Part shown: positions 2,207-28,568 of the stretch, piece after piece
How positions within the stretch are numbered: the stretch's first letter is position 1
Layout of the letters: each line of letters opens with the position of its first letter
Origin: Lachnospiraceae bacterium
Lineage (GTDB): Bacteria > Bacillota > Clostridia > Lachnospirales > Lachnospiraceae
Length of the DNA: 64,000 bases
Direction: 5' to 3'
Assembly (NCBI GenBank): GCA_016286555.1
Contig: JAEETA010000007.1
Location: forward strand, 40,783-104,782
Position numbers and translations under genes: made by a program
Notes under the pieces: generated by a model
Told to the model about the DNA's origin: nothing
The model's database searches: none
What the model saw: only the letters and a program-made list of their open reading frames with translations

Positions 2207-2224
2207 GGTCCTTCCTCAAATCAC

Positions 2225-13034: not shown

Positions 13035-13071
13035 GGAATGTTCCTCCTGTTTGTTATGACAGTCCTGTCAT

Positions 13072-13866
13072 CTATGCAGTCTCTTCCGTCTCCACATAAC
13101 CGTAGCGGTTCCGAAGCATGTCAAAGGTCACTTCGTCCACGATCCGTTTTACGGTCTCAAAGCCGCAGAAATACCGACTCCTGCGCTCGTAAGCAATGAT
13201 CTCGGAAAGGTGTTCCCTGACACCTTCTCCCAGATCGAGACCCATGTCGGAAAAACAGCGAACGCCGTACTCCGTATACTCTTCGAGGGAGAAGGGCTGG
13301 CAACAGAGATCGTCCACATTCAGGAACCATCCGATGGTATTTTTCATTCGCTCGACATTTACCGCATCCATGGCGGGGACCCGGAAGATCAGGAACTGAT
13401 CCTTGACGGTCTCCCGGAGTCTGGCAAACACTGCCCGCATTTCCGGCCCTTCGATGCGGTCCATCCACTTGGTGATATCGATACAGAGCACTCTGGGGTA
13501 AGAGGGTGCCGTCAGGATCCCGTCGTTATCCAGCACGTGAAGCAGCAGATCCCGGTCCGAGGTGAGCTGCGGCCCCTCGGCCTCCACGATATCGGGGATC
13601 CGCAGGGAATAATACCCGATGGGCAGCTCGCCTGGGCGAAAGCATATGTTCCAGAGATCCCGCAGAGTCTTCACCCAGGTCTTGTATCCGTCTCCGTCAG
13701 CGATGGAAAGGAGCACTGCACGCTTTCTGAGGGAAAAATACTCATTGGTGTAGAGTGCGGAAAAAGTATCCCGGTAATCGGCCACGTAAGCCTTTAATTC
13801 CTCGGCCCCCAGCAGCTTTTCCGTTTTTTCTTTTAGTTCCTCATAGTTCAGCTCGACATCTTCCAT
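13072..13866 (-). CDS. Uncharacterised paralogue of the N-terminal half of the neighbouring AAA+ protein
   Basis: 264 residues with the start at MEDVELN (GAGG seven bases upstream). It has no Walker A or B motif. It aligns by eye with the non-catalytic N-terminal part of the AAA+ protein next door: LLSIADGDGYKTWVKTLRDL against LFSISGGDGFSRYISTLRQV, then SLEEYTEYGVRCFSDMG against TTEQYAQFAVQLLSRTG, and FCGFETVKRI against FYGFRSVEML. The second half resembles the last part of an AAA+ module and lid of the CbxX kind without the nucleotide pocket. It may be an inactive partner subunit or adaptor. Function is not known; the relation to the neighbour is the solid part. Confidence 0.7.
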   Translation of the reverse strand: MEDVELNYEELKEKTEKLLGAEELKAYVADYRDTFSALYTNEYFSLRKRAVLLSIADGDGYKTWVKTLRDLWNICFRPGELPIGYYSLRIPDIVEAEGPQLTSDRDLLLHVLDNDGILTAPSYPRVLCIDITKWMDRIEGPEMRAVFARLRETVKDQFLIFRVPAMDAVNVERMKNTIGWFLNVDDLCCQPFSLEEYTEYGVRCFSDMGLDLGEGVREHLSEIIAYERRSRYFCGFETVKRIVDEVTFDMLRNRYGYVETEETA

Positions 13867-13901
13867 TTTCTTTTCCTCTTGCATGAAAGGTGATCAGACC
13901 A

Positions 13902-15908
13902 TCAGACGAATCCCAGCCTGGTCTTCTTTTGCAGCAGTTCCTTGAATTCCTCCGCAGACTCCGCCTTCCGGAAATCGTCCGCCGTCAGGGTGATGAGGGA
14001 TGCATCCAGTGGTCTGCCGCCCAGCTGAGCCTGTACCCGGAGGGCAGCCTTGGCTGCGGTGCGCTCATAGAGATTCCGCACAAAGCGGGCGTTGGAGAAG
14101 GACTCGCTTTCCAGCACCTCCTGCGACAGCGCCATGAAATATTCCTTCGCCGCATCTGCCAGGTCGTCTTTGACCTGATAGGTCTTTGTCGCCATGCTCA
14201 TGAAGATCCGGTAGAGCTCGTCTCTGGTAAAGTTTCGGAACTTGATCTCGTGAGGGATCCTGCTCTTTAAGCCGGGATTGGCCTCCAGCATTTCCTTCAT
14301 GCGGTCGGAGTAGCCGGAGAAGATCACGATGAAATCCTGCCGGTGGTTTTCCATCTGGGTCAGCAGAGTATCCAGAGCCTCCTTGCCGAAATCCCGCTCG
14401 TCATTGTTGCGGTACAGGGTGTAGGCCTCGTCGATGAAAAGCACGGAACCGTAGGCATCCCTGCAGATGGCATTGGTGATGGGCGCCGTCTCGCCGATGT
14501 ATTTTCCCACGAATTCCCTGCCGGAGCGCTCGAAGAACTGCCCCTTGGAAAGGACGTTCCGCTCCTTCAGCACCTTCCCCAGGAGTCTGGCCACGGTAGT
14601 CTTGCCGGTGCCGGGATTTCCCGTAAAGAGCATGTGCATGCAGGGTTTCTGATCGGCGGGCATTCTCGAGGAAACCTCCAATTGCGCCAGGATCTCGTCC
14701 ACACGCTCCCGGATCTCGTCGATGCCGATCATTTCGTCCAGCCCCTCCAGGCCGCCCTGGTCCTGTCTGCAGCGAGCCAGCATGGGTGCCAGGTCTTCCT
14801 CCCGGATGGTTTTTCTGTCTTTTAAGTCGAACCCGACCTCCTGCGACATAGCTCTCCTCCTTATCTCCGTCCGCTGCTTCTGCACCAGGATATCCTCCGT
14901 CAGCATTTCCACGGAGCGGAAGCCGTAAAAGTGTTTCTGATTGCGTTTCTGGATGATCAGCTCTTCCAGCTCATCCCGGGCCCCGTCTTCCACCTGATAT
15001 CCTGTACGGGAAAGAAGCTGCACCGCAAACTGCGCGTATTGCTCGGTGGTAAAGGGCGGTACATCGATGACGATGAGAGGATAGACCTCCCGGATGGCCC
15101 GCAGGACCCGCTCCTTCTCCGCGCCTTCCATGTAGGGGATCTTAAACACGGGCAGAACCTCACTGCCGTTTTCCCGCATTTCCGTCATGAACTCATGGAA
15201 CCTGGCCGTACCCGCATCCACCGTCTTGAAGGTCAGGTCAAAGGCCACCATCTGTCCCTTCATCTGACTCTCTCCGATGATGGAAGTCATTTCCTCATAG
15301 GGACGATCCTTTTTCACCTCCCGGATTTTGGACGTCCTCCCCTGGATATCCCGGACATCGCAAAGGTAAAGCACCTGCCGCAAAGTGGAGATGTAGCGGG
15401 AAAACCCGTCTCCTCCCGAGATGGAGAAAAGAATGGCGCAGCGGGAGAAGAATTCCTGCTGACACTCCGCTCCGGGCGAGGTGGAAATGGCGACAATGTC
15501 GGCACAGAGCTTTTTAAAATCCTCCATGCCCACCAGGGTGTCCAGATTCGTCATGGTAAAAATGCTCCGGATTTTCTCCGGGCCACCCCCTTCGTCGTCC
15601 TCTTCCGCATCCTCGGGATCTTCTCCCCCGGTACTCGTAATATCCGCAACGGAATAAAAGGACTCTTCCGAAAGGTCCAGCGCCTTCCAAAGCTCCTCCG
15701 CGATGGTATTCAGGCAATGCTCTCTGGTGTTCAATACGCTGAATTCCAGGGACCGGCACGCCTCCTTGTGCTCGTCAAAGAGGTCCTGACGAAAGATCTT
15801 CCGGTAATGGTCCAGCACATAATCATCGATCTGTTTTTCTCCGATCTTCCGTCTGTCCTGAGGACCGAAGAAAAACATCATCTTAAAGACAGTCACTTTA
15901 TCATTCAT
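13902..15908 (-). CDS. AAA+ ATPase of the CbxX/CfxQ (SpoVK-like) type
   Basis: 668 residues. The C-terminal module is a classic CbxX/CfxQ AAA+ domain: Walker A in FTGNPGTGKTTVARLLGKVL at about residue 430, Walker B VLFIDEAYTL at about 490, sensor region IVIFSGYSDRM, arginine-finger region NPGLKSRIPHEI and the lid with FSNARFVRNLYE. The N-terminal 350 residues hold a degenerate AAA-like region without Walker motifs, repeated in the paralogue downstream. Relatives remodel protein complexes (Rubisco activase CbbX, EccA of ESX secretion). No Rubisco or WXG100 gene is nearby, so the client is unknown; the gene sits beside a TerY-P-like cluster. Acts in the cytoplasm. Confidence 0.88.
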   Translation of the reverse strand: MNDKVTVFKMMFFFGPQDRRKIGEKQIDDYVLDHYRKIFRQDLFDEHKEACRSLEFSVLNTREHCLNTIAEELWKALDLSEESFYSVADITSTGGEDPEDAEEDDEGGGPEKIRSIFTMTNLDTLVGMEDFKKLCADIVAISTSPGAECQQEFFSRCAILFSISGGDGFSRYISTLRQVLYLCDVRDIQGRTSKIREVKKDRPYEEMTSIIGESQMKGQMVAFDLTFKTVDAGTARFHEFMTEMRENGSEVLPVFKIPYMEGAEKERVLRAIREVYPLIVIDVPPFTTEQYAQFAVQLLSRTGYQVEDGARDELEELIIQKRNQKHFYGFRSVEMLTEDILVQKQRTEIRRRAMSQEVGFDLKDRKTIREEDLAPMLARCRQDQGGLEGLDEMIGIDEIRERVDEILAQLEVSSRMPADQKPCMHMLFTGNPGTGKTTVARLLGKVLKERNVLSKGQFFERSGREFVGKYIGETAPITNAICRDAYGSVLFIDEAYTLYRNNDERDFGKEALDTLLTQMENHRQDFIVIFSGYSDRMKEMLEANPGLKSRIPHEIKFRNFTRDELYRIFMSMATKTYQVKDDLADAAKEYFMALSQEVLESESFSNARFVRNLYERTAAKAALRVQAQLGGRPLDASLITLTADDFRKAESAEEFKELLQKKTRLGFV

Positions 15909-15910
15909 GC

Positions 15911-16168
15911 TTAGGATTCCTTCACGATAACGCCCTTTGTCTTCAGCTCCTCCACGGCATCGTATCCGCCGGCTGCCAGGATCCGTCCCCTTTCATCCAC
16001 CTCCACGGCGGTGCGGACATGGTCGGAATTCATGCTCCATATGTGTTCTTCCACGAAAAAGCCGCCTCCCGTGCGGGGTTTTTGCTCAAAGGAAGTATCC
16101 TCCATCCATTCCGTCCGGTGGATGATCTCCATCAGTTCCTCTGCAGTGATCGTTTTCTGTTCGCTCAT
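15911..16168 (-). CDS. Small hypothetical protein
   Basis: 85 residues starting MSEQKTITAEEL, with GGGAGGCGG as ribosome site; a longer open frame to 16408 runs into the divergent promoter and is rejected. It has an acidic N-terminus, a central GGGFFVEEHIWSM stretch and no membrane segment or Cys pair. It lies two bases upstream of the AAA+ gene and is probably its co-translated partner. I do not recognise a family. Confidence 0.6.
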   Translation of the reverse strand: MSEQKTITAEELMEIIHRTEWMEDTSFEQKPRTGGGFFVEEHIWSMNSDHVRTAVEVDERGRILAAGGYDAVEELKTKGVIVKES

Positions 16169-16208
16169 GTATCCGCCTCCCTTCAAAACGGGGCGTTCCC
16201 CCAAAGAT

Positions 16209-16214
16209 ATTATA
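16209..16214 (-). promoter_or_regulatory. -10 box of the small-ORF/AAA+ operon
   Basis: A perfect TATAAT on the minus strand lies 41 bases upstream of the small gene. No good -35 is visible (best are CCCATT or TTACCC), so it may need an activator. Confidence 0.5.
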
Positions 16215-16285
16215 TCACCCGGAAGGGCGTAATGGGTAATTCGACGGAGTTTCCCGATTTTTTTCCTGTTTTTTGTGCGTTTTCT

Positions 16286-16314
16286 TTGCCAGAACAGGGT
16301 TCCTTGTGTAAAAT
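16286..16314 (+). promoter_or_regulatory. Sigma-A promoter of the TerB-like gene
   Basis: TTGCCA (16286-16291), a 17-base spacer and TAAAAT (16309-16314) precede the gene by 53 bases. It diverges from the promoter of the AAA+ operon. Confidence 0.7.
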
Positions 16315-16367
16315 GGGTATATAACAAAAAACGGCTCCCGCAAGGGGCGCCCACAAGGAGGATTTCT

Positions 16368-16811
16368 ATGTCTGTTTTTGATGATACCTTACAGAGAATC
16401 GTTAACATGGACGACAGGGAGAAAATGGCTCTGGCCGCTTCCAGCTTCCGGGATGTCTATCCTGCAATGTGCCGTTTCGATGACGAGCCCGACGCAGACG
16501 GACATTACATCTTCACCATCATCCTTGCCGGCGTTCTGGCTGCAGACGGCAAGTTCAATGATTATGAGCTGGGCATGGCTGCCGGCATCCTGAAGGCCGT
16601 AGGATATGATTTCTCCTCTGACGAGCTTGCCAATATCCTGGCAAAGATCCTGAAGGGCCTGGATGTTTACAAGATCATCGGCAACTTCAACAATACGCTT
16701 GATGAGGATGAGAACGTTGCATTCGTCACCCTGGTGGCTACCATCTGCTCCATCGATGACAGGATCAGCAAGGAAGAGGTGGCTCTGATCCGCGATCTGC
16801 TGGAGGGCTGA
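16368..16811 (+). CDS. TerB-like protein
   Basis: 147 residues, AAGGAGG seven bases before the ATG; upstream in-frame ATGs are ignored because they overlap the promoter. All-helical and acidic, with two related metal-binding-like loops typical of TerB/DjlA-type domains: LAADGKFNDYELGMA at about 60-75 and ICSIDDRISKEEVALI near the end. TerB proteins are membrane-associated, calcium- or metal-responsive partners in Ter stress systems. No terC, terD or terZ is seen here, so tellurite resistance should not be claimed. The gene stands alone between the AAA+ operon and the peptidase/kinase cluster. Confidence 0.75.
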   Translation: MSVFDDTLQRIVNMDDREKMALAASSFRDVYPAMCRFDDEPDADGHYIFTIILAGVLAADGKFNDYELGMAAGILKAVGYDFSSDELANILAKILKGLDVYKIIGNFNNTLDEDENVAFVTLVATICSIDDRISKEEVALIRDLLEG

Positions 16812-16843
16812 TCCGGCCGCTGACTGTTTTCCTGATATATTCG

Positions 16844-16880
16844 AAGAACCGGAAGAGCATTGCTCTCCCGGTTCTTTTTG
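16844..16880 (+). terminator. Rho-independent terminator after the TerB-like gene
   Basis: Arms AAGAACCGGAAGAGC and GCTCTCCCGGTTCTT with loop ATT (one mismatch) are followed by TTT. It could also serve the convergent peptidase gene. Confidence 0.85.
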
Positions 16881-16932
16881 GTTGTATCAGTTTGGCAATC
16901 GGCTGCCGTGCTTGCACGGCGTCACCGGTTTT

Positions 16933-17814
16933 TCAATATCTGGAGTAGGACACCCCCAGCTCCTGCAACTTGGCGATGCGGTCATGAGGCTCGGGATGGG
17001 AGGAATACAGCGCCTTGAAGAAGGAACTCTTGGGTTTCCCCCAGGTGATGGTATCCAGCGCTGCTGCCAGATGATCGCCGTACCCGATCTCGTAGGCATA
17101 CCGGTCCGCCTCGTACTCATTGGCTCTGCTGGACCACATCAGGAAGAGCATGCAGAATTTCGTCCACAGGAAGACCAGCAGTGCGGAGAATATATCCAGC
17201 AGTCCGAAGATCAGACCCACGATATCATCCCCATCCTTCCGGAAGAGATTCAGGGTCGCCCAGGCCGCCTTGATGTAGTAGAACACCCGAAGGACCAGCA
17301 GGAATGTGGTAATGATGATATTTCCGCCGCCGATCATCAGCTGGATCACGGTATGATGCATGGCCAGATGCCCCAGCTCGTGAACCAGGATGCCTTCGAT
17401 CATCTCCTCCGGCAGATCCAGCAGCCCCTCCGTCACGCAGACAGTCCGCTTTCCGATGGCATAGGCGTTGGGTTCCGGATCATGCATGACCTTCAGGATG
17501 ATCACATCGGGAAGGGCGTTGCCGGATTTTTTCTCCGCCGCTGCCTGCACCCGCTGTATGATGGGGGTGATCTTCTCCCGCATGTCCAGTCGCCGCATTT
17601 TCCGTGCTCCGGCGAAAAATCCCAGAGCCCACTCCCCCAGAGGAGAGAGGGACAGGAGCACGCTGACGACATAAGCAATACCCACATATACCATCTTCCG
17701 AGGCTCACCGTCGGAAAACCAGACGATGATCAGGGCCGCATTCAGGAAGAAAAACACGATGGATCCCAGATTGCTGAGCCGAAAGATACTTTTGAGCACA
17801 TGGAACAGATACAT
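16933..17814 (-). CDS. M48 family membrane zinc metallopeptidase (HtpX-like)
   Basis: 293 residues. Zinc motif HELGH at 145-149 in LVHELGHLAMHH, third ligand Glu in the downstream NEYEADRYAYEIGYG. Membrane segments lie at about 17-33 and 42-58, with further hydrophobic stretches between the motif and EYEAD, as in HtpX, which degrades damaged membrane proteins. PNAYAIG and VTEGLLDLP before the active site are also typical of M48. It lies four bases downstream of the zinc-ribbon gene, so it belongs to the VWA-PP2C-kinase run and may be the proteolytic output of that pathway, which is inference. Confidence 0.9.
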   Translation of the reverse strand: MYLFHVLKSIFRLSNLGSIVFFFLNAALIIVWFSDGEPRKMVYVGIAYVVSVLLSLSPLGEWALGFFAGARKMRRLDMREKITPIIQRVQAAAEKKSGNALPDVIILKVMHDPEPNAYAIGKRTVCVTEGLLDLPEEMIEGILVHELGHLAMHHTVIQLMIGGGNIIITTFLLVLRVFYYIKAAWATLNLFRKDGDDIVGLIFGLLDIFSALLVFLWTKFCMLFLMWSSRANEYEADRYAYEIGYGDHLAAALDTITWGKPKSSFFKALYSSHPEPHDRIAKLQELGVSYSRY

Positions 17815-17817
17815 AGA

Positions 17818-18540
17818 TCACTCTCCTGCCTTGTTTTCTCTGCGTTCCCGCACTGCCTGCTCGAAGGGGGATAAGGCTTCCCCGGCGTCCTCTGCAGGAT
17901 CCTCTGTGAGACCACCCGCCGGGTCTTCCGTGAGATCCTCTGCGGCATTCGCTGCGGGGTCTTCCGTCTCCAACGTCTGCGGATACTGTACTTCCAGTCT
18001 GTCCGCTGTCTCCCGGTAATGCCGGACGCTCAGGCCGATCCAGATGATCAGCGGGATCAGAACGACAGCCAGAACCACCCTGCGAATAGTGCGGCTCCAG
18101 TAGCTCCGGGCATACTCTCTTGCCTTGCGATCCGACGCAGCTTTGGAGAGCTCCCGGGCCTTGCGCTCTGCCTCGGCCTTTGCTTTCTCTGCCGCCAGAC
18201 GCTCTGCTTCCAGTCTCTCCACTTCCGCTTTCGCCGCTTCTATCCCGGAGGCCGCCTCTTTTTTCAATGCGGTAAATGCATCCGTCTTTGCTTTCTCTTT
18301 GGAAAATTCGGGCGTGCTGTGGGAAGTACCCTCTGCTTTGGGCGGTTTCGGTGAAACGACCTTTTCCTCCGGCTCCGGTTTTTTGATGGGTTTCGGCCGA
18401 AATTTTTCCGCCGGAGGGGCCTCATGCTTCGGCGGATCGGGGCGCATGGAAACCCCGGCCGGCCTTGCCGCACCGCAGATATCGCATTCCGTTAAGGAAT
18501 CATCATTATATGCATCACACTGCGGACATTGCCAGCTCAT
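17818..18540 (-). CDS. Zinc-ribbon, coiled-coil, single-pass membrane protein
   Basis: 240 residues. The N-terminus has a RanBP2-like zinc ribbon: WQCPQCDAYNDDSLTECDIC with Cys pairs at 5/8 and 19/22. A Pro/Lys-rich linker (about 28-70) and an Ala/Glu/Lys coiled coil (about 90-150, KAEVERLEAERLAAEKAKAE) follow, then one membrane segment at about 155-173 (VVLAVVLIPLIIWIGLSV). The outer tail has short degenerate repeats rich in TEDPA. The zinc ribbon faces the cytoplasm. It may be a scaffold or substrate of the kinase/phosphatase pair encoded just upstream; zinc ribbons are frequent in TerY-P clusters. Confidence 0.7.
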   Translation of the reverse strand: MSWQCPQCDAYNDDSLTECDICGAARPAGVSMRPDPPKHEAPPAEKFRPKPIKKPEPEEKVVSPKPPKAEGTSHSTPEFSKEKAKTDAFTALKKEAASGIEAAKAEVERLEAERLAAEKAKAEAERKARELSKAASDRKAREYARSYWSRTIRRVVLAVVLIPLIIWIGLSVRHYRETADRLEVQYPQTLETEDPAANAAEDLTEDPAGGLTEDPAEDAGEALSPFEQAVRERRENKAGE

Positions 18541-18558
18541 CTAAGCCTCCTGCGTTTC

Positions 18559-18852
18559 CTACACCTTGCGGGCCATCTTTTGCACCACAAGCATTTCCGA
18601 ACGCAAAAACCGTCCGGATCCGTCCTCTTTGTAGAAGGTATAGCCCTTCACCCCGGAGAGCACGGTCTGCTCCGAACTCACATATCCCATGGATTTCAGA
18701 GCCTTTTTGTCAAATTCGATGCCATGCTCCGGCCAGGGCTTCGCAAATCCCTTCGCCACAGCAGCCTTTTTATCCTCTTTGTTCTTCTTCCGCAACCGAT
18801 AGGAGAGCTTTATCGCCTCCCAGTCGGAAAAAGCAACCGCGGTCTCTTTCAT
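18559..18852 (-). CDS. Small protein made of one PWPEH repeat domain
   Basis: 97 residues. After about 35 basic residues the protein is a single copy of a 60-residue unit that is present three times in the kinase encoded immediately upstream: PWPEHGIEFDKKALKSMGY, then GVKGYTFYKEDGSGRFLRSE and the ending VVQKMARKV, against VVQKMARKE in the kinase. The shared ending suggests recent duplication of the kinase tail. I do not recognise the domain. Being free of the kinase part, it could compete for or bridge the same partner. Confidence 0.75.
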   Translation of the reverse strand: MKETAVAFSDWEAIKLSYRLRKKNKEDKKAAVAKGFAKPWPEHGIEFDKKALKSMGYVSSEQTVLSGVKGYTFYKEDGSGRFLRSEMLVVQKMARKV

Positions 18853-20475
18853 TTACTCTTTCCTCGCCATTTTCTGCACCACAGCCATCTCTGCGCGGAT
18901 GAACTGATCGCTGCCGTCGGGGCGGCTGAACCGGTATCCGTTCACCCCACCGATGGTATCTCTGGCCACGGCGGAAAATCCCTTCTTTCCGATGACCTCC
19001 GGATCAAAGGTGATCCGATGCTCCGGCCAGGGATCGCACAGCTTCACACCGCCGGATACGGGGCCGTGAGTTGTCGTCTCCTTTTTCGTTTCCGGTGCAG
19101 GTTTGGGCACTGTCGTCTCTTTCCTTGCTTCCGGGGCCGCAGCCTTCGTTCCTGCGGAAGGAGAAGAGGCACTTCCGCCCCCGGCGTAGCCCATGCCCAC
19201 CACCATTTCCTTCCGGAAGAAGGTGTAGGTGGAATCCGCACGATAGAAACGATATCCCTTGATGCCGTCCATGAGGAAACGGCTCACGCCGACGAATCCG
19301 CGGCTCTTGATCTTCTCGACATTGAAGGAAATGCCGTGCTCCTCCCAGGGATCTTCAAATCCCAGGCTGCGCTTCAGCAGTCCTTCCAGGGCCAGTTCCA
19401 CCTTGGAAAGGACTCTCTTTTTGCCGTCAGAGGAGGTGAGCTCATACTTTTTCTCGGAGCCCTCCGTCACTTTTTTCAGCCCCTCGATGCCGCGCTTTTC
19501 AAAGGCCTCCGCATCCAGGATGATCTCATGCTCCGGCCAGGGTTCCTCGATGATCCGCTCCTCTTCCTTCAGACGCTTCAGCACCTCCAGTGCGGTGGGG
19601 CGCTCCTCGGGATCCTTTTTCAGCATATCCTCGATGAGGGAACGGTATTTCTTCTTGTCGATGGCGGGGCTGATCTTCAGCTTTGCCCCTGCATTCACGG
19701 CTACCCAGGCATAGATCTTCTTCCCCTTGGCAGCGCGCTTCTGCAGTTTCTCCGGAAGGTCCGTCACCTCCGGCAGTTCCCCGCTCAGGTAGAAATGAAA
19801 GATCAGTCCCAGGGAGAAAATGTCGGATTTCTGGGTCAGTGTATGGGCCGCAGCTGCCATTTCCTCCTCATCCTCCAACTGGGAGTAAAGTCCCAGCTCG
19901 GGGGAGTAGTAGTTCACGTCACCCACGATCTCATCCGGCTTGTCATCCAGGGGATAACTGCTGTCAAAATCGATGAGCTTTGCCACGTAATTGCCCGCGG
20001 CATTGCGCACCAGCAGCACGTTTTTCAGCTTCAGGTCACTGTGGACGATGCCCAGCTTATGGACGCTGGAAAGAGCTCCTGCCGCCGTCTGCATCAGGAG
20101 TTTTTTCACATCCACGGACAGGCTCCGCAGCACGCCCTCCAGCTCTTCCTCCGGAACCACGCCCTCGACGAATTCCGCCGCTTCCGCGTATTTGTTCTCT
20201 ATCATGAACTCCGCTTCCGGGATCACGATGTTACCGCCGGAGCCGGTGATGGTCCGGATCAGGGAGTTGACGGTGGTCCTGGTCTTTACGAAATGATCGA
20301 AGAGCTTCTGATTGTGGGCGAAGGTCTTGGCATCCAGGGTTCCGTTTTTCACGGGGGCCGCGGGAGTGTTGTATTTTTTCAGAAAATACTTCTTACCGCC
20401 CTTTTTCGCAAGGGCGGTCTCTCCGCACTGACTGTTTTTCCATTCGCCTATGACGGTATAGCCGTTTACGGTCAT
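18853..20475 (-). CDS. Hanks-type serine/threonine protein kinase with three C-terminal PWPEH repeats
   Basis: 540 residues, starting at MTVNGYTV with AAAGGAG eight bases upstream (a TTG six codons earlier is less likely). Kinase features: the ATP-binding Lys in KKYFLKKYN, catalytic loop VHSDLKLKNVLL (HSD instead of HRD, so a non-RD kinase), metal-binding IDFDSS in place of DFG, SPE for APE and KSDIFSLG in subdomain IX. All catalytic residues are present, so activity is expected. From about residue 320 three 60-residue repeats follow, beginning EEPWPEHEI, EDPWEEHGI and CDPWPEHRI; the last two carry GIKGYRFYR or GVNGYRFSR. No membrane segment. It sits between PP2C and the repeat-only protein, forming a kinase-phosphatase pair. 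Confidence 0.88.
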   Translation of the reverse strand: MTVNGYTVIGEWKNSQCGETALAKKGGKKYFLKKYNTPAAPVKNGTLDAKTFAHNQKLFDHFVKTRTTVNSLIRTITGSGGNIVIPEAEFMIENKYAEAAEFVEGVVPEEELEGVLRSLSVDVKKLLMQTAAGALSSVHKLGIVHSDLKLKNVLLVRNAAGNYVAKLIDFDSSYPLDDKPDEIVGDVNYYSPELGLYSQLEDEEEMAAAAHTLTQKSDIFSLGLIFHFYLSGELPEVTDLPEKLQKRAAKGKKIYAWVAVNAGAKLKISPAIDKKKYRSLIEDMLKKDPEERPTALEVLKRLKEEERIIEEPWPEHEIILDAEAFEKRGIEGLKKVTEGSEKKYELTSSDGKKRVLSKVELALEGLLKRSLGFEDPWEEHGISFNVEKIKSRGFVGVSRFLMDGIKGYRFYRADSTYTFFRKEMVVGMGYAGGGSASSPSAGTKAAAPEARKETTVPKPAPETKKETTTHGPVSGGVKLCDPWPEHRITFDPEVIGKKGFSAVARDTIGGVNGYRFSRPDGSDQFIRAEMAVVQKMARKE

Positions 20476-20489
20476 GATACCGGCTCCTT

Positions 20490-21749
20490 TCAATCTTCAC
20501 TGACATATCTGTCGGGAAATGCGATGTAATCGTGGAGATAGTTTTCAAACAGCGCTTCCTGCAGAGATCTCTTCAGCTGCAGCACGGTTTCGTCCGCAGG
20601 GGAAGGCTCCGCAGTGCCCTCCGGAACTGCCGGCTTTTCCTCTTCCGGCTTCAAGCTGATGCCGGTGGCATAGTCGTACTCCAGCAGGTCGGGCATTTTT
20701 TCCAGATATTTTTCCTGCAGCGCTTCCAGACGCTTTTTCGCGCTCTCCTGCAGGCTTTCAAAGGAGTCGTAGCCAAAGAATTTCATCGCCATGGTGGAGC
20801 TGTCGTCGTGCCTGCCGTGCTCTTTGAAAAAGTCGGTGAGGCGCTCTCCCATCTCCTTTTCCGACTTCGATATGACAGCTGTGTCAAGCAGCAGTTTTTC
20901 GAAGGCCATGGGCGACAGGAACTGTTTGGAATCAAAGCAGCCGTCGCTGGCGTTAAAGAGAATGCAGGGCTTTTTAAAGGTCATGAAATCACAGCGGATC
21001 CGGATGCCCTCGGTGTTGTTGGCCCGGATGTAATTCGTCATGCCGCCGTCAGGGCCTTCCTCGTCCGGCAGGAGCTGACGCAGTCCTTTGCTTTCCTCCC
21101 AGACGTAAGGTCTGGAATCACCCGCCGTCAGGTACACGGCCCGCACCCCGTCCTCGGTCTCACGATACAGGGTGAGGCACAGAGTGGTACCCAAAAGAGC
21201 CAGTCCGGAATACGCGGACTCATAGGTGAGTCCTGCCCGCTCCGCCACCAGCTTCAGGCCTTCCACGACCTCGGAGGTGAGATGTTCCTCTGCTTTTTGT
21301 AATTGTGCTCTTCGTTCTTCCGCGGGGAGTGCACTGAGATGATCGATCCAGCCCGGACAGTCAAAGGGCGGATCATTATAAAGAAATATATGCAAAAAAA
21401 TCCCGGCAACGATGCGGGATGCGAAATATCCGCTTTTCTTAATGTTGTTGACGTTGTCCGTGTAACAATCACGAACGGCAAACAGCTCAAAAAACGAATC
21501 TCTGATGTAAGTTTCAAATGCCGGCGGCATATCCCCGCCGTACTGCTGTCCGAAGAGAACCTTCGGAAGAAGTGCCGGATCAAAAAGCTCCGGGCGGATG
21601 TTCTGATGACGGATCGCAGCGGCTCCCCCAAGCCCGTCCGCAACCAGAAGCAGTCTGTCATTCACAAGGGGGAGAGCATCCTCCCCCTTGTAGACGATCG
21701 TACCGTCCGGCCGCTCTTTAAAAGCCTGCCTGTAAACCGTTAATTCCAC
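20490..21749 (-). CDS. PP2C-family serine/threonine phosphatase
   Basis: 419 residues, GTG start directly after the stop of the VWA gene. PP2C metal motifs are recognisable although divergent: VADGLGG (motif with the first Asp), GTTLCLTLY, YLTAGDSRPYVW, NASDGCFD and RHDDSSTMAM near residue 340. The stretch at 80-170 is an insertion compared with short PP2Cs. It has no membrane segment. It should reverse the action of the adjacent kinase, and with the VWA protein gives the three-gene set known as the TerY-P triad. Confidence 0.82.
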   Translation of the reverse strand: MELTVYRQAFKERPDGTIVYKGEDALPLVNDRLLLVADGLGGAAAIRHQNIRPELFDPALLPKVLFGQQYGGDMPPAFETYIRDSFFELFAVRDCYTDNVNNIKKSGYFASRIVAGIFLHIFLYNDPPFDCPGWIDHLSALPAEERRAQLQKAEEHLTSEVVEGLKLVAERAGLTYESAYSGLALLGTTLCLTLYRETEDGVRAVYLTAGDSRPYVWEESKGLRQLLPDEEGPDGGMTNYIRANNTEGIRIRCDFMTFKKPCILFNASDGCFDSKQFLSPMAFEKLLLDTAVISKSEKEMGERLTDFFKEHGRHDDSSTMAMKFFGYDSFESLQESAKKRLEALQEKYLEKMPDLLEYDYATGISLKPEEEKPAVPEGTAEPSPADETVLQLKRSLQEALFENYLHDYIAFPDRYVSED

Positions 21750-22436
21750 TTAGAAGGATCCCACCATCAGATCGATCGCAGACTGGATGTCCACATCCGC
21801 GAGACCGGTTCCTGCGGGGGAGAAAGCGGGCCAGTAACGGTTCCACGCCTGCATCTCCGTCCAGGGATATGCATTGGGAACGAATGCTACCAGTCTGCCT
21901 GCCTTGGGCTGATAATTGCTGGTAAGAGTCTGATCGGTGCCCTCCCACCATGCAGCCAGCTGCTTGATATCCTCGGGCATTCCCTGAGGATAGGATGCTT
22001 CGCCCTTGTTCTTGCCCAGCTCATGCGCGGGAGCATCGGAGAACACCAGGATCGCATGACGTCTCTTGGCACCCTCGGTGGTCCAGTCGGACTTCAGCGC
22101 CACAGCGATGGCTTCCAGTGCATCCTCTTCCGTGTCAGCGCCGCCGTTTGCTTCGATGCCGTTTACGAATGCCTTGAAATCGTCGGTCTCGTCGGGCAGC
22201 ACGAAGAATTTGGACTCATCCATGGGGCTGCGGTCTGCCTTATAGTCGCCGAATGCGATGACCTTGATGCGAAGCTGTTCCACTTCCTTGTCGTTCTCGT
22301 CCATCGCATCCACAAATCTCTGATAGAAGGAGAGTGCGTTGCTTTTCACCTCATCGATGATGGGAGCCATACTTCCCGTCTTATCGATGCACATGACGAT
22401 GTCCACGCAATACTCGCCCATACCCTGTCCAGCCAT
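21750..22436 (-). CDS. TerY-like von Willebrand factor A domain protein
   Basis: 228 residues, almost all one VWA domain. The metal-ion-dependent adhesion site is intact: DIVMCIDKTGSM at the N-terminus, the Thr in NGGADTEED and the Asp in ILVFSDAPAHE. It resembles TerY in size and in its neighbours (PP2C and kinase). TerY-type proteins are thought to scaffold or present substrates to the kinase/phosphatase pair. The start is fixed by AAGGAGG seven bases upstream, and it is the first gene after the minus-strand promoter at 22526-22554. Confidence 0.87.
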   Translation of the reverse strand: MAGQGMGEYCVDIVMCIDKTGSMAPIIDEVKSNALSFYQRFVDAMDENDKEVEQLRIKVIAFGDYKADRSPMDESKFFVLPDETDDFKAFVNGIEANGGADTEEDALEAIAVALKSDWTTEGAKRRHAILVFSDAPAHELGKNKGEASYPQGMPEDIKQLAAWWEGTDQTLTSNYQPKAGRLVAFVPNAYPWTEMQAWNRYWPAFSPAGTGLADVDIQSAIDLMVGSF

Positions 22437-22501
22437 ACCATATCCTCCTTGTATGCGCCTGCCCGTCCCCTCCTCACATAATTTCGGAAACTACAGGCAA
22501 T

Positions 22502-22530
22502 TTGATAGAAAATACCGTTAATTGTATGAT
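22502..22530 (+). promoter_or_regulatory. Sigma-A promoter of the RyR-domain gene
   Basis: TTGATA (22502-22507), 17-base spacer, TATGAT (22525-22530), 76 bases before the ATG. Shares its -10 with the opposite promoter, so polymerase can occupy only one at a time. Confidence 0.7.
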
Positions 22531-22554
22531 AAAATGTCTATTGCGGAGTTTCAA
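22526..22554 (-). promoter_or_regulatory. Sigma-A promoter of the VWA-PP2C-kinase operon
   Basis: Minus strand TTGAAA (22554-22549), 17-base spacer, TATCAT (22531-22526). Its -10 overlaps the -10 of the divergent plus-strand promoter. Confidence 0.7.
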
Positions 22555-22566
22555 GTGATTCCGCAA
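22541..22566. promoter_or_regulatory. Inverted repeat between the divergent promoters and the RyR-domain gene
   Basis: TTGCGGA (22541-22547) and TCCGCAA (22560-22566) form a 7-bp inverted repeat with a 12-base centre. It overlaps the -35 of the minus promoter and lies in the leader of the plus transcript, a suitable place for a regulator acting on both. Confidence 0.5.
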
Positions 22567-22606
22567 ATATTTCTCTGTTTTTCGTTACTTTGAAGGAGGG
22601 AACTCT

Positions 22607-24505
22607 ATGCTTTTATCCGGCATTTTTCACACGGGGGAAGGAATCTTCTGGATCCTCTGTTTTTCCGTGGCACTCATTCTCTTTATCGCCGGCATTGCTT
22701 ATCTGATCATCCAAAGAAAGGTACGGGGTGAGGATCTGGCCAAGGCAACGGTGTTTGAATTCATCGCAGCCGTCATTCTCTTCCTGCCGGGAGAACTCTT
22801 TGACAACGGTACATTGCGGGTGATCCCGGTACTGAAGGGCACGGAGAGTCTGCTGACCTCCATCCTGCGGACCATCAACATGTACATGGGCAACGACTAC
22901 TCCGAGGTGGCCCTGGAAGGACATCCCGTATTTTCCACCGCCTATGCGGCCCTGATGACCGCTACCAACATTGCTCTGCTGGTCTTTGCCTTCGGATTTT
23001 TGATCAAATTCCTGGACGGCCCGCTGCAGAAGCTCCGTCTCCTCCTGCGGGGGAAGAGAAATACCTATCTCTTCACGGACATTAACGAAAAGACCATGAC
23101 CATCGCGGGATCCGTTCCGGACAAAAACAGATCCCTGGTCTTCTGTTCCCAGGGCACCGAACTGACTCCGGAACAACGGGAACGGATCGAGGAAATGGGC
23201 GGCATCTATGTCAACGATCCCCCGGAGATTCTGATCCGCAAGGCCCAGAAAAAGGGAGAAAAGCTGGAGATCTTCCTCTTCGGAGACTCCGAGGATTCCA
23301 ACCTGTCGAAGCTTTCCGAACTGTGTGCCGTCTTTGAATCCCTGACACCGAAAAAGGTGCGGATCTATGTGGAACTTTCCCAGACTCCCTGGGATCTCTA
23401 CGATCACTTCCTGGAGCGCAACAACGCAGAATTCGGCGACAACCTCATCATCAATTTCGTCCGTACCGAAGAGAATTTCGCTTACAACCATCTGCTGAAG
23501 CACTCCATTTTCGAAGGCGCCATCCCGCAGAAGGCGGAGAATGGCGAAGAGCCCGCCCGGAAGATCGGCGTCCTCATCGCCGGCATGAACCAGCGAAACC
23601 TGGAGCTGTTCAAGGCCATCCTGCATCTGTCCCAGATGCCGGGCTACCGCCTTTCCATTCTGGTGCTGGATGCGGATCCCTTCGGCTGGGAGCACATGCT
23701 GCAGATGATCCCCGAGATCCACAAGAGCACGGAATTCAGCGATGCCCTCTATGACCTGCACTATTTCGAGGGTGTGGATTTTGCTACCGACAAGCCGGAA
23801 CAGGCTGCGGAAATGTATCTCCCCGATTTTACCTTCGCCTTCGTGAATGCAGAGGATGACCTGATGAATCTGAACCTGGCGCTGCGACTCCAGACCTTCC
23901 GCTATCGCAGAGGTCAGCTGGAGGGCTACCGGATCCAGGTCAACATCACCGACCGGAAGCTTTGCACCCACTGGAACACGGAACTCTTAAAGAACCTCAC
24001 CATCGTGGGCGACACGGCCTCCACCTACGATTACGGCTTCGTCACCATGTCCGACATCGAGCGCGCCTCCGTTGCCATCCATTATGTCCGCTATCCGAAG
24101 AACACGCCCGAGGAGGATGCGGCAGGCAAGAAACCCAATAAGACCTGGACCCAGTATTGCAACGACGAGTACAACCGCCATTCCGTTTATGCCCGTACCT
24201 TAAGCTTTAAGTACAAGGTGGCCATCATCGACGAGTTCTACGGCAGTGACTACAGCATCACCTCCACGGACCGGACCTGGAAGATCTACGAGCACATGCG
24301 CTGGGATGTCTACACCAGAACTCTGGGCTACGTCTTGACGGAGCAGCCTCTGAAGGATGCCGTGGGCAAGCCGGAGCGCCCCCTGCGGGATCTGGCCAAA
24401 GCCCACTCCGACCTGGTGCCTTACGAGGAGCTGGACGAGGAAACCAAATCAAAGGACGCCCTGAAGCTGACCCCCGAGATCGTAGCGATCCTGAAGAGCA
24501 TCTAA
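22607..24505 (+). CDS. Membrane protein with Rossmann-like region and C-terminal RyR domain
   Basis: 632 residues, GAAGGAGGG upstream. Three membrane segments lie in the first 140 residues (about 13-34, 48-63 and 113-137). The cytoplasmic part has a stretch beginning KRNTYLFTDINEKTM and a Rossmann-like strand-turn-helix RKIGVLIAGMNQRNLELFKA, reminiscent of TrkA-N/CASTOR-like NAD-binding proteins but with a degenerate Gly motif. The last 75 residues match the RyR domain pattern: YEHMRWDVYTRTLGY, then HSDLVPYEELDEETKSKD. Prokaryotic RyR domains are proposed to bind nucleotide-like signals. It is divergent from the VWA operon and its stop codon overlaps that of the TIR gene. Function is inferred only. 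Confidence 0.7.
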   Translation: MLLSGIFHTGEGIFWILCFSVALILFIAGIAYLIIQRKVRGEDLAKATVFEFIAAVILFLPGELFDNGTLRVIPVLKGTESLLTSILRTINMYMGNDYSEVALEGHPVFSTAYAALMTATNIALLVFAFGFLIKFLDGPLQKLRLLLRGKRNTYLFTDINEKTMTIAGSVPDKNRSLVFCSQGTELTPEQRERIEEMGGIYVNDPPEILIRKAQKKGEKLEIFLFGDSEDSNLSKLSELCAVFESLTPKKVRIYVELSQTPWDLYDHFLERNNAEFGDNLIINFVRTEENFAYNHLLKHSIFEGAIPQKAENGEEPARKIGVLIAGMNQRNLELFKAILHLSQMPGYRLSILVLDADPFGWEHMLQMIPEIHKSTEFSDALYDLHYFEGVDFATDKPEQAAEMYLPDFTFAFVNAEDDLMNLNLALRLQTFRYRRGQLEGYRIQVNITDRKLCTHWNTELLKNLTIVGDTASTYDYGFVTMSDIERASVAIHYVRYPKNTPEEDAAGKKPNKTWTQYCNDEYNRHSVYARTLSFKYKVAIIDEFYGSDYSITSTDRTWKIYEHMRWDVYTRTLGYVLTEQPLKDAVGKPERPLRDLAKAHSDLVPYEELDEETKSKDALKLTPEIVAILKSI

Positions 24506-26631
24506 GGCTCCAGGCCTCTTCTCTCGATCTCCGCTTCGTTTTCTTCCAGCTGCTTCCGGAAGACTTCGGATCCCGTGGCATTTGCCAGTTTCTCCAGGTA
24601 CTCGCTTAAGGCAAAGTACGCGTAGCGGATCTCCTTGTCCTTTTTCCGGCCTTTTCCCATCTCCTCCGCAAGCTCGATCAGGAGTCTGCAGTTTTCCACC
24701 TGGGTAAAGAGGTAATCCGGCCGCTCCTCCCGCTGGACGAGCAGGGCAAAGGCCATTTCCAGCATTTCCTTTGCTTTTTCGTACTCTCCCAGGATCCGGT
24801 ACATCACTCCGAAGGCACGGTAATAGCGCTCTCCGATCTCCAGCCCTTCTCCGGTCCAGCCGTTCTGGAAGAGCAGCACGCTGCCTGCCTTGACCGTGGG
24901 CTCATACTCTTTCAGATGATCCACCTGCCGCAGTGCATCCCGTTTTTTCAGATGGGGCAGTGCCTGGGCAGATACCTCGCAGAAATCACAGATCAGCTTC
25001 GAGAAGGAATAGGAAAGAGCCAGGAACCGTCTGTCAAAGGTGCCGTCCTCGTTCCGCTCCTTGCCCCGCAGGGACGCAAAATACATAGCTCCCAGACCTT
25101 CGTCCGCATAGAGTCCCAGCATGAAATTGTCCTCGCCGCTGACCTCCGTCATGGGACGCAGCATGGGCAGGATATCCCAATCGGGATCGTATACTTCCTC
25201 TCTCTCGAAAAGCTCCATGTAGGTCCCGCAGATATCTTCGTAGACGTCCATGATGAGCTTGTTCATCTGGGGCTGTTCCGCTTCCGGAATATTGGCATTT
25301 CGGAGCACCTCGGCATACTGAATAAGCACCTTAGCGCGGAGCACCTCTTCCCATTCGTCGGGGAAGCGTTTTTTCATCTCCATCACATGGCCGTAGGCCT
25401 GCCTTATGACTTCCCCTGCCTTCACATTCTGATCGCAGTCAAAAAGGATCTTCGCCAGATTTCTCTCGTAATCGATGATCTCCAGGTAGTCCTCCCGCTG
25501 CCAGGATTCCTTCCGCTCCTCCGTCTGGGCCACCATCCGCTGCTGGACTACCGCAGCCTTCAGATAATCCGCCTCCACATAGCGGCCTTCCAGGTAGATG
25601 TTCACCAGCCGCCTGGACGCTTCCAGACAGCCCCCTTCCGAGGATCTGGTAAGGAGCTTCACGGCTCTCTCCGTATCCGTCTCCACATCGATGCCGTAGA
25701 GGTACGCCAGCGCGATGAAAAAGAGATGATCGGGATCGTCGTTTTCCTTCATCCCTTCCACCTGAAACTGTCGGAGCAGCGCCTCGGTGACCTCGTCCTC
25801 ACGATTGACATCCACGGGATCCGGCAGGGCTTCGTACCCGTTTTTCAACGCCTCCCGGTCAGTGTCCACCGCCTGGATGGGAAGCACTGCCTTTCCCTGT
25901 TCCCGCACCATGGGATATTCCGTGCGCCTGATGTAATTGTCCTCATTCACCAGGTTGGGGGTCACCACCAGGGTCACCAGCTTTGACTTCAGGATGGCGT
26001 CCCCGATGGCGTCGTTGTAGTTTTCTCCCGGCACCAGATACTCATCGTACCAGATGGCCACATCCCGCATGAACTCGTTGTTGTGAATGAGTCGCATGAT
26101 CCGGTTGGCGTACTGCCTGTCCTTCTTGCGGTAGCTCAGGAAAATGTATGCATCAAAAGCATCCCGGATCCTGTCAGAGATCTTCTCATCCAGCAGGATG
26201 TCATCCAGAAAAGCGACGAGCTTATGCTCGAAAGAAAGGGCCGTCTCATCGTGTTTTACGGCATTGAGGTACTGGATCTTGCCGCAGACTGCACTGAAAA
26301 CGGAGGCAATGTCCGGCTCCTCCAGAATGGGAAGCAGAGCGATGTGTTTTTCCTGCACCCGGTAGAAGATTGCCTTCCGCTGGGCGCAATCGTCATGCAG
26401 GAAGGACAGGGTGACGGGACATACCGCCAGCCGCACGGAATCCAGCACTTCGTCCGTGATGTCCGCCGGATCTTTGGAATAATAGAATGCAACATCCGGA
26501 AACAGTTTCATGATCTGATCCGTGATGGGCTCCAGAAAAACATCAAAATCCTGTTCCGATGCAAAATACAGTACTCTTACCAGCCCATTGGGCTTTTTCC
26601 CCAGATACGTTCTGTATTGCAGTTCCCCCAT
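24502..26631 (-). CDS. TIR-domain protein with Sel1/TPR-like repeats
   Basis: 709 residues, start at MGELQYRTYLG (GGAG five bases upstream). The TIR domain lies at about 160-260: FDAYIFLSYRKKDRQYANRI (box 1), WYDEYLVPGENYNDAI (box 2) and RRTEYPMV, whose Glu is the likely NADase residue. Residues 10-130 look like a second, degenerate TIR-like fold (VRVLYFASEQDFDVFLEPI). Sel1-like repeats follow at about 300-380 (FIALAYLYGIDVETDTERAVKLL), then a long helical TPR-like region. No membrane segment. TIR proteins in bacteria cleave NAD or make nucleotide signals in immunity; together with the convergent RyR gene this suggests a signal maker and receiver, which is inference. Confidence 0.85.
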   Translation of the reverse strand: MGELQYRTYLGKKPNGLVRVLYFASEQDFDVFLEPITDQIMKLFPDVAFYYSKDPADITDEVLDSVRLAVCPVTLSFLHDDCAQRKAIFYRVQEKHIALLPILEEPDIASVFSAVCGKIQYLNAVKHDETALSFEHKLVAFLDDILLDEKISDRIRDAFDAYIFLSYRKKDRQYANRIMRLIHNNEFMRDVAIWYDEYLVPGENYNDAIGDAILKSKLVTLVVTPNLVNEDNYIRRTEYPMVREQGKAVLPIQAVDTDREALKNGYEALPDPVDVNREDEVTEALLRQFQVEGMKENDDPDHLFFIALAYLYGIDVETDTERAVKLLTRSSEGGCLEASRRLVNIYLEGRYVEADYLKAAVVQQRMVAQTEERKESWQREDYLEIIDYERNLAKILFDCDQNVKAGEVIRQAYGHVMEMKKRFPDEWEEVLRAKVLIQYAEVLRNANIPEAEQPQMNKLIMDVYEDICGTYMELFEREEVYDPDWDILPMLRPMTEVSGEDNFMLGLYADEGLGAMYFASLRGKERNEDGTFDRRFLALSYSFSKLICDFCEVSAQALPHLKKRDALRQVDHLKEYEPTVKAGSVLLFQNGWTGEGLEIGERYYRAFGVMYRILGEYEKAKEMLEMAFALLVQREERPDYLFTQVENCRLLIELAEEMGKGRKKDKEIRYAYFALSEYLEKLANATGSEVFRKQLEENEAEIERRGLEP

Positions 26632-26701
26632 ACCATCTCCTTTCGTATGTGCGCCCAAATGCGGGCGTGTTACCCGGTCTGCGAAACGCCTGCCCGGCAG
26701 G

Positions 26702-27904
26702 TCACTCAAAGTACATTGCGATGATGGCTACTTCTCCGTTCTTGATCACCACCTTCGCGACCATTCCGTCCTTCGTGTAGGTAAAGCCTCCCGTGCTCAG
26801 CTCCAGGGATGCGTTACCGTTCTTCACGAAGACGCCTTTCTCCGCCATTTTCTGATCAATGTGGAATCCCAGGAAATGCCACATATCCTCCTCGGAATCC
26901 CCCACCTCCAGACCGCCCAGGCATACGACGCCGGGCTTATCTATGACAATGTTGTCAGATCCGTCCTGTCCCAGGAGCTTGTCTCCCGCCGTAAAGGGAA
27001 TGGAAGTAAGCCCCAGCCAGCCGTGGATCTTGCGTTCCGTTGCGCGTTTGGTAAAGACGTCATCGATCCGGTCTCCCACACGGTCAAAGAAATTGTGGAT
27101 GTGCACCAGAGCCCGCTGGCCCCAGGTATAATCGGATGCCTTCCCCAGGGATGCGGACTGTCCGTCCTTGGTGATGATCAGCTCCCGATCCTCCGGGTTC
27201 ACCTTCGCCGGTTCCTCTGCATTCCCTTCCTGCGATTGTTCCGCAACGTCTGCGTTCTCTTCGGCACCCTCCGCCGCAGGAACTTCATCCTCTGTCTGTC
27301 CGGTGCTTTCCGTAAGATTCGGCAGGTCCCCCGCAAACTTTCGCTCTTCTCCCTGCTGCAGTTCCTGCTCCCGCAGCGTGCCTCCCAGGGAGGTACCGGT
27401 CCGGACGGAACCGTTCAATACGCTGACAGCGGTAAAGGGCTCACCGTCTTCCTCTCCCAGCTCCACCAGATAGACCGTCTGCTTCTCCAGGGGCGTCACC
27501 AGCACATTGGGGGTGGCCACCTGATAAGGGTCCTTTTTCGACGGTTTGTTGTCCTGTCCTGCGATGACGGCGCCCTCCGTCAGGAAGATCCGAAGCGCAC
27601 CCTTTTCTCCGGAAGAGAGTAAGACGAAATTCGCTCCGGTGTCGGCGTAGAGGTGCCTTTTCTCTCCGATGGAAAGGATGATATCGGCATTTTCCTTCAA
27701 CCGGATCCATTCCTGGGAAGATAGTCTCATCCCCTGAGAGATATCCCACACCGCATCGGCGTTAAAGGCGGTGGCGGTGGCGCTGCCGTTCAGTTCCGTA
27801 ACAATGATCTCTTGCGAGGCATCATTTTTTCCGGAGCTGCCGCAGCCCGTGGCGAACAGAGCGCTTAGGAGCATCAGGGCAAAAAGCCTGATCCTTCGCT
27901 TCAT
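26702..27904 (-). CDS. FecR-domain lipoprotein
   Basis: 400 residues. The signal peptide MKRRIRLFALMLLSALFATGC ends in a lipobox ATGC, so the protein should be anchored outside the membrane. A FecR-like domain follows: WDISQGMRLSSQEW, SIGEKRHLYADTGANFVL, RIFLTEGAVIAG and VSVLNGSVRTG. A Glu-rich linker at about 195-240 leads to a C-terminal domain of about 140 residues I do not recognise, with GFTYTKDGMVAKVVIKNGE at its end. No FecI sigma factor is nearby, so the iron-regulation role should not be assumed. Its ATG overlaps the stop of the SMI1/KNR4 gene. Confidence 0.75.
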   Translation of the reverse strand: MKRRIRLFALMLLSALFATGCGSSGKNDASQEIIVTELNGSATATAFNADAVWDISQGMRLSSQEWIRLKENADIILSIGEKRHLYADTGANFVLLSSGEKGALRIFLTEGAVIAGQDNKPSKKDPYQVATPNVLVTPLEKQTVYLVELGEEDGEPFTAVSVLNGSVRTGTSLGGTLREQELQQGEERKFAGDLPNLTESTGQTEDEVPAAEGAEENADVAEQSQEGNAEEPAKVNPEDRELIITKDGQSASLGKASDYTWGQRALVHIHNFFDRVGDRIDDVFTKRATERKIHGWLGLTSIPFTAGDKLLGQDGSDNIVIDKPGVVCLGGLEVGDSEEDMWHFLGFHIDQKMAEKGVFVKNGNASLELSTGGFTYTKDGMVAKVVIKNGEVAIIAMYFE

Positions 27905-28446: not shown

Positions 28447-28568
28447 CGTTCCTCCTCCCTCGGCGCTCACGCAGCCGTCCGCAGATCCTTATTTCATCCG
28501 CCCGGTCACTGTCAGTTTTCTGCCGTGCCTCGCTCATCCCATGTGACACCGGCGTCGTTTTCACTCTA

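Follow-up and report, generated by a model that had tools for sequence, protein, structure and literature searches.

A TerY-P-type triad whose kinase carries W-EH domains, with a possible link to an HtpX-like membrane peptidase, in a Lachnospiraceae bacterium

Introduction

TerY-P triads are rows of adjacent genes for a VWA protein, a PP2C phosphatase and a Ser/Thr kinase (PMC11090510, PMC4978471). In the excerpts of these sources on which we draw, the triads are reported as phosphorylation switches and hypothesised to be metal sensors, and their kinases are described as carrying a zinc ribbon (PMC11090510) or an oligonucleotide/oligosaccharide-binding (OB) fold at the C-terminus. Other excerpts report that TerY-P triads protect against phages, including T7-like ones (PMC10889362, PMC7699616). 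The target of the triads is not settled, as far as the portions of the literature consulted tell. Effector-associated domains (EADs) offer a second comparison: as excerpted from PMC7159879, the same small domain is found on a core protein and on the product of a neighbouring gene, and a coupling role has been proposed for it. Here we describe a triad of TerY-P type in a Lachnospiraceae bacterium. It lies in a 64,000-nucleotide stretch of contig JAEETA010000007.1, the whole of which we call the window, and its kinase ends in three copies of a domain that we name W-EH. A fourth copy is found on the small protein encoded next to the kinase, and genes for a zinc-ribbon protein and an HtpX-like peptidase follow.

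We tentatively propose, giving the idea slightly less than an even chance, that this triad, with its W-EH kinase and small partner, acts as a phospho-switch on zinc-ribbon-headed proteins and on the HtpX-like peptidase at the membrane. The clade would expose the wiring of such a system, with a domain shared by kinase and partner, a common ribbon head on several proteins and a peptidase that tracks the partner through genomes. It thereby narrows the possible substrates to a few and points to a candidate phosphosite and coupling domain. If the proposal is true, it would be a case of a bacterial kinase/phosphatase pair controlling a membrane peptidase. A search of the open-licence literature found no paper that joins a TerY-P triad with HtpX or with W-EH.

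The triad and its six-gene row

Six consecutive genes on the minus strand encode the VWA protein, the phosphatase, the kinase, the small protein, the zinc-ribbon protein and an M48 peptidase, and all genes named here are open frames at the coordinates given:

21750..22436, minus strand: VWA protein (TerY-like), 228 amino acids, metal-site motif DKTGS; Pfam VWA_4 40.1 bits (cut-off 27)
20490..21749, minus strand: PP2C-type phosphatase, 419 amino acids, motifs ADGLGG, GDSR, ASDG and DDSS; PP2C_2 below cut-off
18853..20475, minus strand: Ser/Thr kinase, 540 amino acids, kinase domain and three W-EH domains; Pkinase 82.2 bits (Pfam cut-off 31.7)
19366..19545, minus strand: W-EH copy 1 of the kinase; own profile, 66.4 bits
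19177..19353, minus strand: W-EH copy 2 of the kinase; own profile, 87.8 bits
18856..19035, minus strand: W-EH copy 3 of the kinase; own profile, 85.1 bits
18559..18852, minus strand: small partner protein, 97 amino acids, FSDW motif and then one W-EH; own profile, 99.4 bits
18826..18828, minus strand: Ser9 of the FSDW motif in the small protein, proposed phosphate acceptor; invariant in 11 aligned small proteins
17818..18540, minus strand: zinc-ribbon protein, 240 amino acids, one membrane segment predicted by a crude hydrophobicity count
18442..18537, minus strand: RanBP-type zinc-ribbon head, WxCxxCxxxNx6CxxC
16933..17814, minus strand: M48 peptidase, HtpX-like, HELGH motif, 293 amino acids

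The triad runs head to tail across 18853-22436. Gaps down the six-gene row are 0, 14, 0, 18 and 3 nucleotides if the kinase begins at ATG 20475 (540 amino acids), which is likelier than TTG 20493 (546 amino acids) because of an AAAGGAG site. The last two genes lie just beyond the stretch 18559..22436 covered by a preliminary description of this DNA. That description placed the small protein, the zinc-ribbon membrane protein and the peptidase closely spaced behind the kinase, as the gaps of 0 to 18 nucleotides bear out. Its recognition of a VWA-PP2C-kinase triad in one minus-strand row was also upheld, by the genes themselves, by profiles and motifs, and by gene order in relatives. VWA and PP2C genes lie upstream of the kinase, VWA first, in 28 of 34 loci with a W-EH kinase; the remaining six run into a contig end no more than 4.6 kb upstream of the kinase. 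In Ruminococcus loci the VWA and PP2C genes are separated by up to about 2.3 kb. One locus (L029, 826-4789) has five consecutive VWA genes ahead of the phosphatase and one more downstream.

VWA_4, Pkinase and Peptidase_M48 each scored above their Pfam cut-offs in the window proteins; PP2C_2 did not, and all four catalytic PP2C motifs sought are present in the phosphatase. These motifs are complete in 32 of the 34 PP2C open reading frames (ORFs) listed. The VWA protein matches general VWA models only, no TerY model having matched it or any VWA protein of triads whose kinase lacks the repeat. A simple pattern search found a motif of the D-x-[TS]-x-S type in 38 of 45 VWA ORFs, the others being cut, N-terminally extended or without it.

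The catalytic loop of the kinase is non-RD (HSD) and IDFD replaces DFG. The latter had been taken as a peculiarity of this kinase, a claim that did not survive comparison: IDFD is also found in eight repeat-free kinases of the same triad kind (L007, L044-L050) and, judged from the sequences compared, is a family-wide trait. The non-RD loop and DFD for DFG could nevertheless point to a pseudokinase that serves only as a scaffold. We consider this very improbable, as four residues (546-residue numbering) do not vary across 26 aligned kinases including that of the window: K39, the likely ATP-binding lysine; the catalytic pair D153 and N158; and the metal-binding D175. The sharing of DFD with the repeat-free kinases and the intact-looking PP2C next door argue in the same direction, and the motifs kept in kinase and phosphatase speak for working enzymes.

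It is at the C-terminus of the kinase that the locus departs from described TerY-P triads. Where the kinases in those sources are said to end in a zinc ribbon or OB-fold, the tail here is taken up by three W-EH domains, and separate downstream proteins bear the zinc ribbon. Pfam found no ribbon family at the kinase end and the tail has no CxxC pair; Pfam lists no OB-fold there either, and a fold search with W-EH gave no clear match of any kind. An AlphaFold2 model of the kinase (mean predicted local distance difference test score, pLDDT, 85) contains W-EH-like elements three times. In a tree, the branch splitting the W-EH kinases (including that of L042) from the eight repeat-free ones has a Shimodaira-Hasegawa-like approximate likelihood ratio test (SH-aLRT) support of 100%, though long branches meet there.

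The W-EH domain and the small partner protein

W-EH is a domain of about 60 residues, found with a profile built from the kinases, with three copies at the kinase end and a single C-terminal copy in the small protein. Its consensus is EPWPEHxIxFDxDxIxxKGFVxxExxxxxGVKGYxFxRxDGxxxFxRxEMLxxxKxAxK, in which a Trp and a Tyr are invariant. The AlphaFold2 model of the small-protein copy (pLDDT about 87-90) is of the alpha+beta class, in the order beta-alpha-beta-beta-beta-alpha-beta, and a structure search with it gave no clear fold match in the PDB. Searches of Pfam, NCBIfam, PADLOC and PHROGs gave no match for the small protein, consistent with the earlier view that the repeat domain is undescribed. 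Relatives carry the same domain at the same places, so the repeat is more than chance. In the scanned loci W-EH occurs on kinase and small-protein ORFs only, and in a sample of the class it was found in two of 391 genomes, those of the window and of L032; in both, the kinase bears three copies and a fourth stands alone.

The preliminary description had cast the repeat domain as the output of the triad. It does sit on one partner, yet it is also on the kinase itself and so is not simply an output; more likely it couples the kinase to an adaptor that travels with the HtpX-like peptidase. The arrangement is like that excerpted for EADs (PMC7159879), in which a small domain has one copy at the end of the core protein and another on the product of the adjacent gene. 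In one genome here (that of L025) the partner copy lies elsewhere and the core is still present. The system differs from EADs in having three copies on a kinase and in that the small protein matches no Pfam family; closer kinship between adjacent copies, an EAD feature in that source, was not found here.

Alternatively, W-EH could be a ligand- or peptide-binding sensor through which kinase and small protein read one signal without touching each other. Its small alpha+beta build, invariant Trp and Tyr and lack of a clear PDB fold would suit a sensor. So would the variation in copy number on the kinase between close strains: the L009 (= G010:C132) kinase is one 64-residue unit shorter, in frame, and otherwise 94-99% identical to that of the window. 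The pairing of a core-protein copy with a neighbour copy is, however, the pattern described for coupling domains in the excerpts of PMC7159879, and the class sample placed W-EH nowhere but on the kinase and the small protein. We therefore view a pure sensor role as unlikely.

The small protein had been described as repeat-only. Its W-EH is present, but a 37-residue N-terminal part with the FSDW motif precedes it, and it is the Ser of this FS motif that is invariant in the alignment of 11 small proteins. In five loci (L022, L029, L032, L036 and L038) the small protein reads zinc ribbon, FS motif, W-EH. W-EH closes the chain in each of the 36 homologues of the L022 small protein from a protein collection, and 35 also have the ribbon. 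A motif of four residues with FS or YS at its end was likewise found in 35 of the 36, the exception (P0147) being a 124-residue form without ribbon. The small proteins of the window, L010, L012, P0122 and P0123 have retained the FS motif and W-EH, not the ribbon, and in the window, L010 and L012 a ribbon instead heads the next gene.

Zinc-ribbon heads on the partner proteins

The ribbon of the window scores 26.9 bits against Zn_ribbon_RanBP (cut-off 27) in a single-protein Pfam scan and 30.4 bits in a search of the genome, where it is the one RanBP ribbon above the Pfam cut-off. None of 14 control genomes had a RanBP ribbon above that cut-off. Weak matches to RanBP-type zinc fingers in the PDB (Nup153, NZF fingers of the HOIL-1L type and others) share with it the pattern W-x-C-x2-C-x3-N-x6-C-x2-C; in these bacterial loci the ribbon is an N-terminal head.

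Ribbon-headed ORFs (WxCxxCxxx[NQ]...CxxC) accompany the W-EH kinases closely. Among the 31 W-EH loci with at least 700 nucleotides behind the kinase, 30 have one within 1300 nucleotides behind it and 26 within 100 nucleotides. All 47 such ORFs in 653 kb are on the strand of the kinase. Of eight loci counted without W-EH, two have a ribbon-headed ORF after the kinase, and in three such an ORF precedes the triad. The heads are joined to Sel1 repeats (Ruminococcus loci), to leucine-rich repeats with membrane segments, to membrane segments alone or to W-EH. A profile of the head matched in four of 31 genomes of the window's genus; two matches exceeded 50 bits, both in kinase carriers, and the third carrier, G010, whose contig ends inside the small gene, gave no match. 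In 12 carrier genomes the head matches above 40 bits lie on the contig of the triad, with two exceptions, one each in the genomes of L025 and L036. Three weaker matches lie off the triad contig, in the genomes of L041 and L029.

Since the head-profile and locus searches place ribbons on other ORFs, the ribbon is on separate proteins and not at the kinase end. The system thus appears, on its sequences, to be a variant of TerY-P in which the zinc ribbon, part of the kinase in described triads, is carried by partner proteins, one of them likely tied to the kinase through W-EH.

Joint occurrence of the small protein and the peptidase

The peptidase scores 93.7 bits against Peptidase_M48 (Pfam cut-off 20.3) and contains HELGH, an instance of HExxH. 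Its best NCBIfam matches are HtpX models, at no more than 49.8 bits against equivalog cut-offs of 245-422 (422 for the best match), and so NCBIfam does not call it HtpX. It is the only M48 match in its own genome (89.8% complete) and was found in one of the 31 same-genus genomes, the window's own; for both reasons it does not resemble a housekeeping gene of this genus.

Small protein and peptidase come and go together. Seventeen W-EH loci have at least 8 kb behind the kinase; six of these carry the small W-EH gene together with the peptidase, and the remaining 11 carry neither. Across the whole genomes of 20 kinase carriers, a stand-alone W-EH and the peptidase both occur in the same seven and are both lacking in the other 13 (Fisher p 1.3e-5, uncorrected for kinship). 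Ruminococcus flavefaciens XPD3002, YRD2003 and MC2020 are among the carriers that lack the small protein. The L025 locus has no ribbon, small gene or peptidase near its triad; another contig of that genome (L074) carries the small gene (3250-3645), a ribbon gene (2142-3230) and the peptidase (1257-2138) in a row. Two SpoIIE-type phosphatase genes (L074, 3765-7438) are divergent from this unlinked block. L022 and L023 are colinear, with 67-79% DNA identity over matching pieces, and L023 is without the small gene at one place and without the peptidase and the preceding gene at another; neither small gene nor peptidase was found elsewhere in the L023 genome. The gene directly before the peptidase in L022 (14185-15408, 408 amino acids) has that position in L029, L032 and L036 as well, and gave only a weak sub-threshold Pfam hint.

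A plain TerY-P triad with the peptidase and small protein carried along as chance neighbours would account for the 11 of 17 loci that lack both genes. It is hard to square with seven joint presences and 13 joint absences in 20 genomes, with a block that stays together unlinked from the triad, and with a colinear pair that differs in both genes at two places; we hold this explanation to be improbable. The six-gene order as such, suggested earlier as a check, is conserved in only two other loci, L010 and L012, the peptidase gene of L012 being preceded by a gap of about 1 kb. At other loci the row is interrupted by further genes, and the small protein and peptidase still go together.

Proposed mechanism

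In the mechanism that we propose, the VWA protein would sense or scaffold through its metal site. The W-EH domains would tie kinase to partner, directly or via a common ligand, in a coupling of kinase and adaptor analogous to that proposed for EADs in the excerpts of PMC7159879. The kinase would phosphorylate the zinc-ribbon partner, most simply at the constant serine of the [IV]VFS-type motif, and PP2C would reset phosphorylated partners. Membrane proteins would then be the targets of the zinc-ribbon membrane protein and the peptidase, probably when the cell meets envelope, metal or phage stress. We infer that membrane proteolysis is under the control of the switch, which fits the peptidase link. 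The membrane output (peptidase and ribbon membrane protein) would belong to one part of the systems, and Sel1 and leucine-rich proteins to the other. A more specific version is an address-tag phospho-relay, in which the ribbon head marks clients, W-EH brings the kinase to the adaptor so marked, and a phosphate on the FS serine frees or arms the HtpX-like membrane peptidase, so that the kinase and phosphatase would control membrane proteolysis directly; in this detail the idea is doubtful.

Several observations weigh against the phospho-switch proposal. The phosphatase scores 15.6 bits against PP2C_2, below the Pfam cut-off of 24. For the small-protein copies of W-EH, the nearest kinase copy comes from another genome in nine of nine cases. 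In the assembly of G010, where the kinase and a small gene truncated by the contig end are present, no peptidase was found. Two genomes of the same genus that lack the kinase, G012 and G004, gave weak ribbon-like matches (21-26 bits). The Ruminococcus loci, about half of the W-EH loci, lack both small protein and peptidase, and therefore the peptidase cannot be the sole output. Finally, the best kinase tree shows four changes in the joint trait, only two of them in pairs on well-supported branches; these are too few, which ruled out a corrected test.

Neighbouring genes and distribution

Further genes near the row, with their occurrence beside relatives, are:

16275..16811, plus strand: TerB-like protein; Pfam TerB 21.0 bits, below cut-off; recurs beside the system, with homologues in L010, L011, L012 and L025
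22607..24505, plus strand: divergent membrane protein whose end gives a weak RyR-like match below threshold; also found in L009, L010, L012 and L022
24502..26709, minus strand: TIR and Sel1 protein; TIR genes also adjoin L010
13902..15908, minus strand: AAA+ ATPase of the SpoVK/CbbX kind; also adjoins L012
27904..28470: gene recurring in L012

TerB-like or TerD genes near several of the loci are a further likeness to TerY-P triads. A rival reading is an anti-phage or other conflict cassette, in which the triad would sense and relay the signal, and the ribbon proteins, the peptidase and the TIR and channel-like proteins would be effectors that arrest or kill infected cells. Phage protection by TerY-P triads in the excerpts cited above is in its favour, as are the TIR and RyR-like genes adjoining both the six-gene row of the window and L010 and the patchy presence of the kinase, in three of 31 same-genus genomes. 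Set against these, a TIR gene was found in one and the RyR-like gene in four of the 34 W-EH loci as fetched, and no pattern match in viral contigs encoded a relative. PADLOC had no match for the VWA protein, PP2C or small protein of the window; it cannot decide the matter because the VWA and PP2C proteins of repeat-free triads are also without a PADLOC match. On balance we judge such a cassette somewhat unlikely.

Kinase relatives numbered 458 at E 1e-5 among 7994 scored candidates, and 42 kinase loci were found in contigs taken at one genome per species, mostly from rumen and gut Clostridia by their titles. Repeat-free relatives of the kinase occur in Clostridia, Chloroflexota, Nitrococcus and Streptomyces. 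Among 397 genomes sampled from the family, six gave a kinase match, the W-EH part being covered by the window's own only; this sample omits the genus's two other kinase carriers.

The wider neighbourhood (12183-28470) recurs in L012, with a UPF0167-type gene, the SpoVK-kind AAA+ gene, the opposite-strand TerB-like gene, the RyR-like membrane protein and the gene at 27904-28470. In L022 (2310-5789) a double AAA+ protein that includes an M41 (FtsH-type) peptidase domain is encoded upstream of the VWA genes and has relatives in L010, L034 and L043. One triad with a W-EH kinase and a ribbon-headed gene (L037) is on a contig filed as Thermoguttaceae (Planctomycetota), which could reflect either gene transfer or mis-binning.

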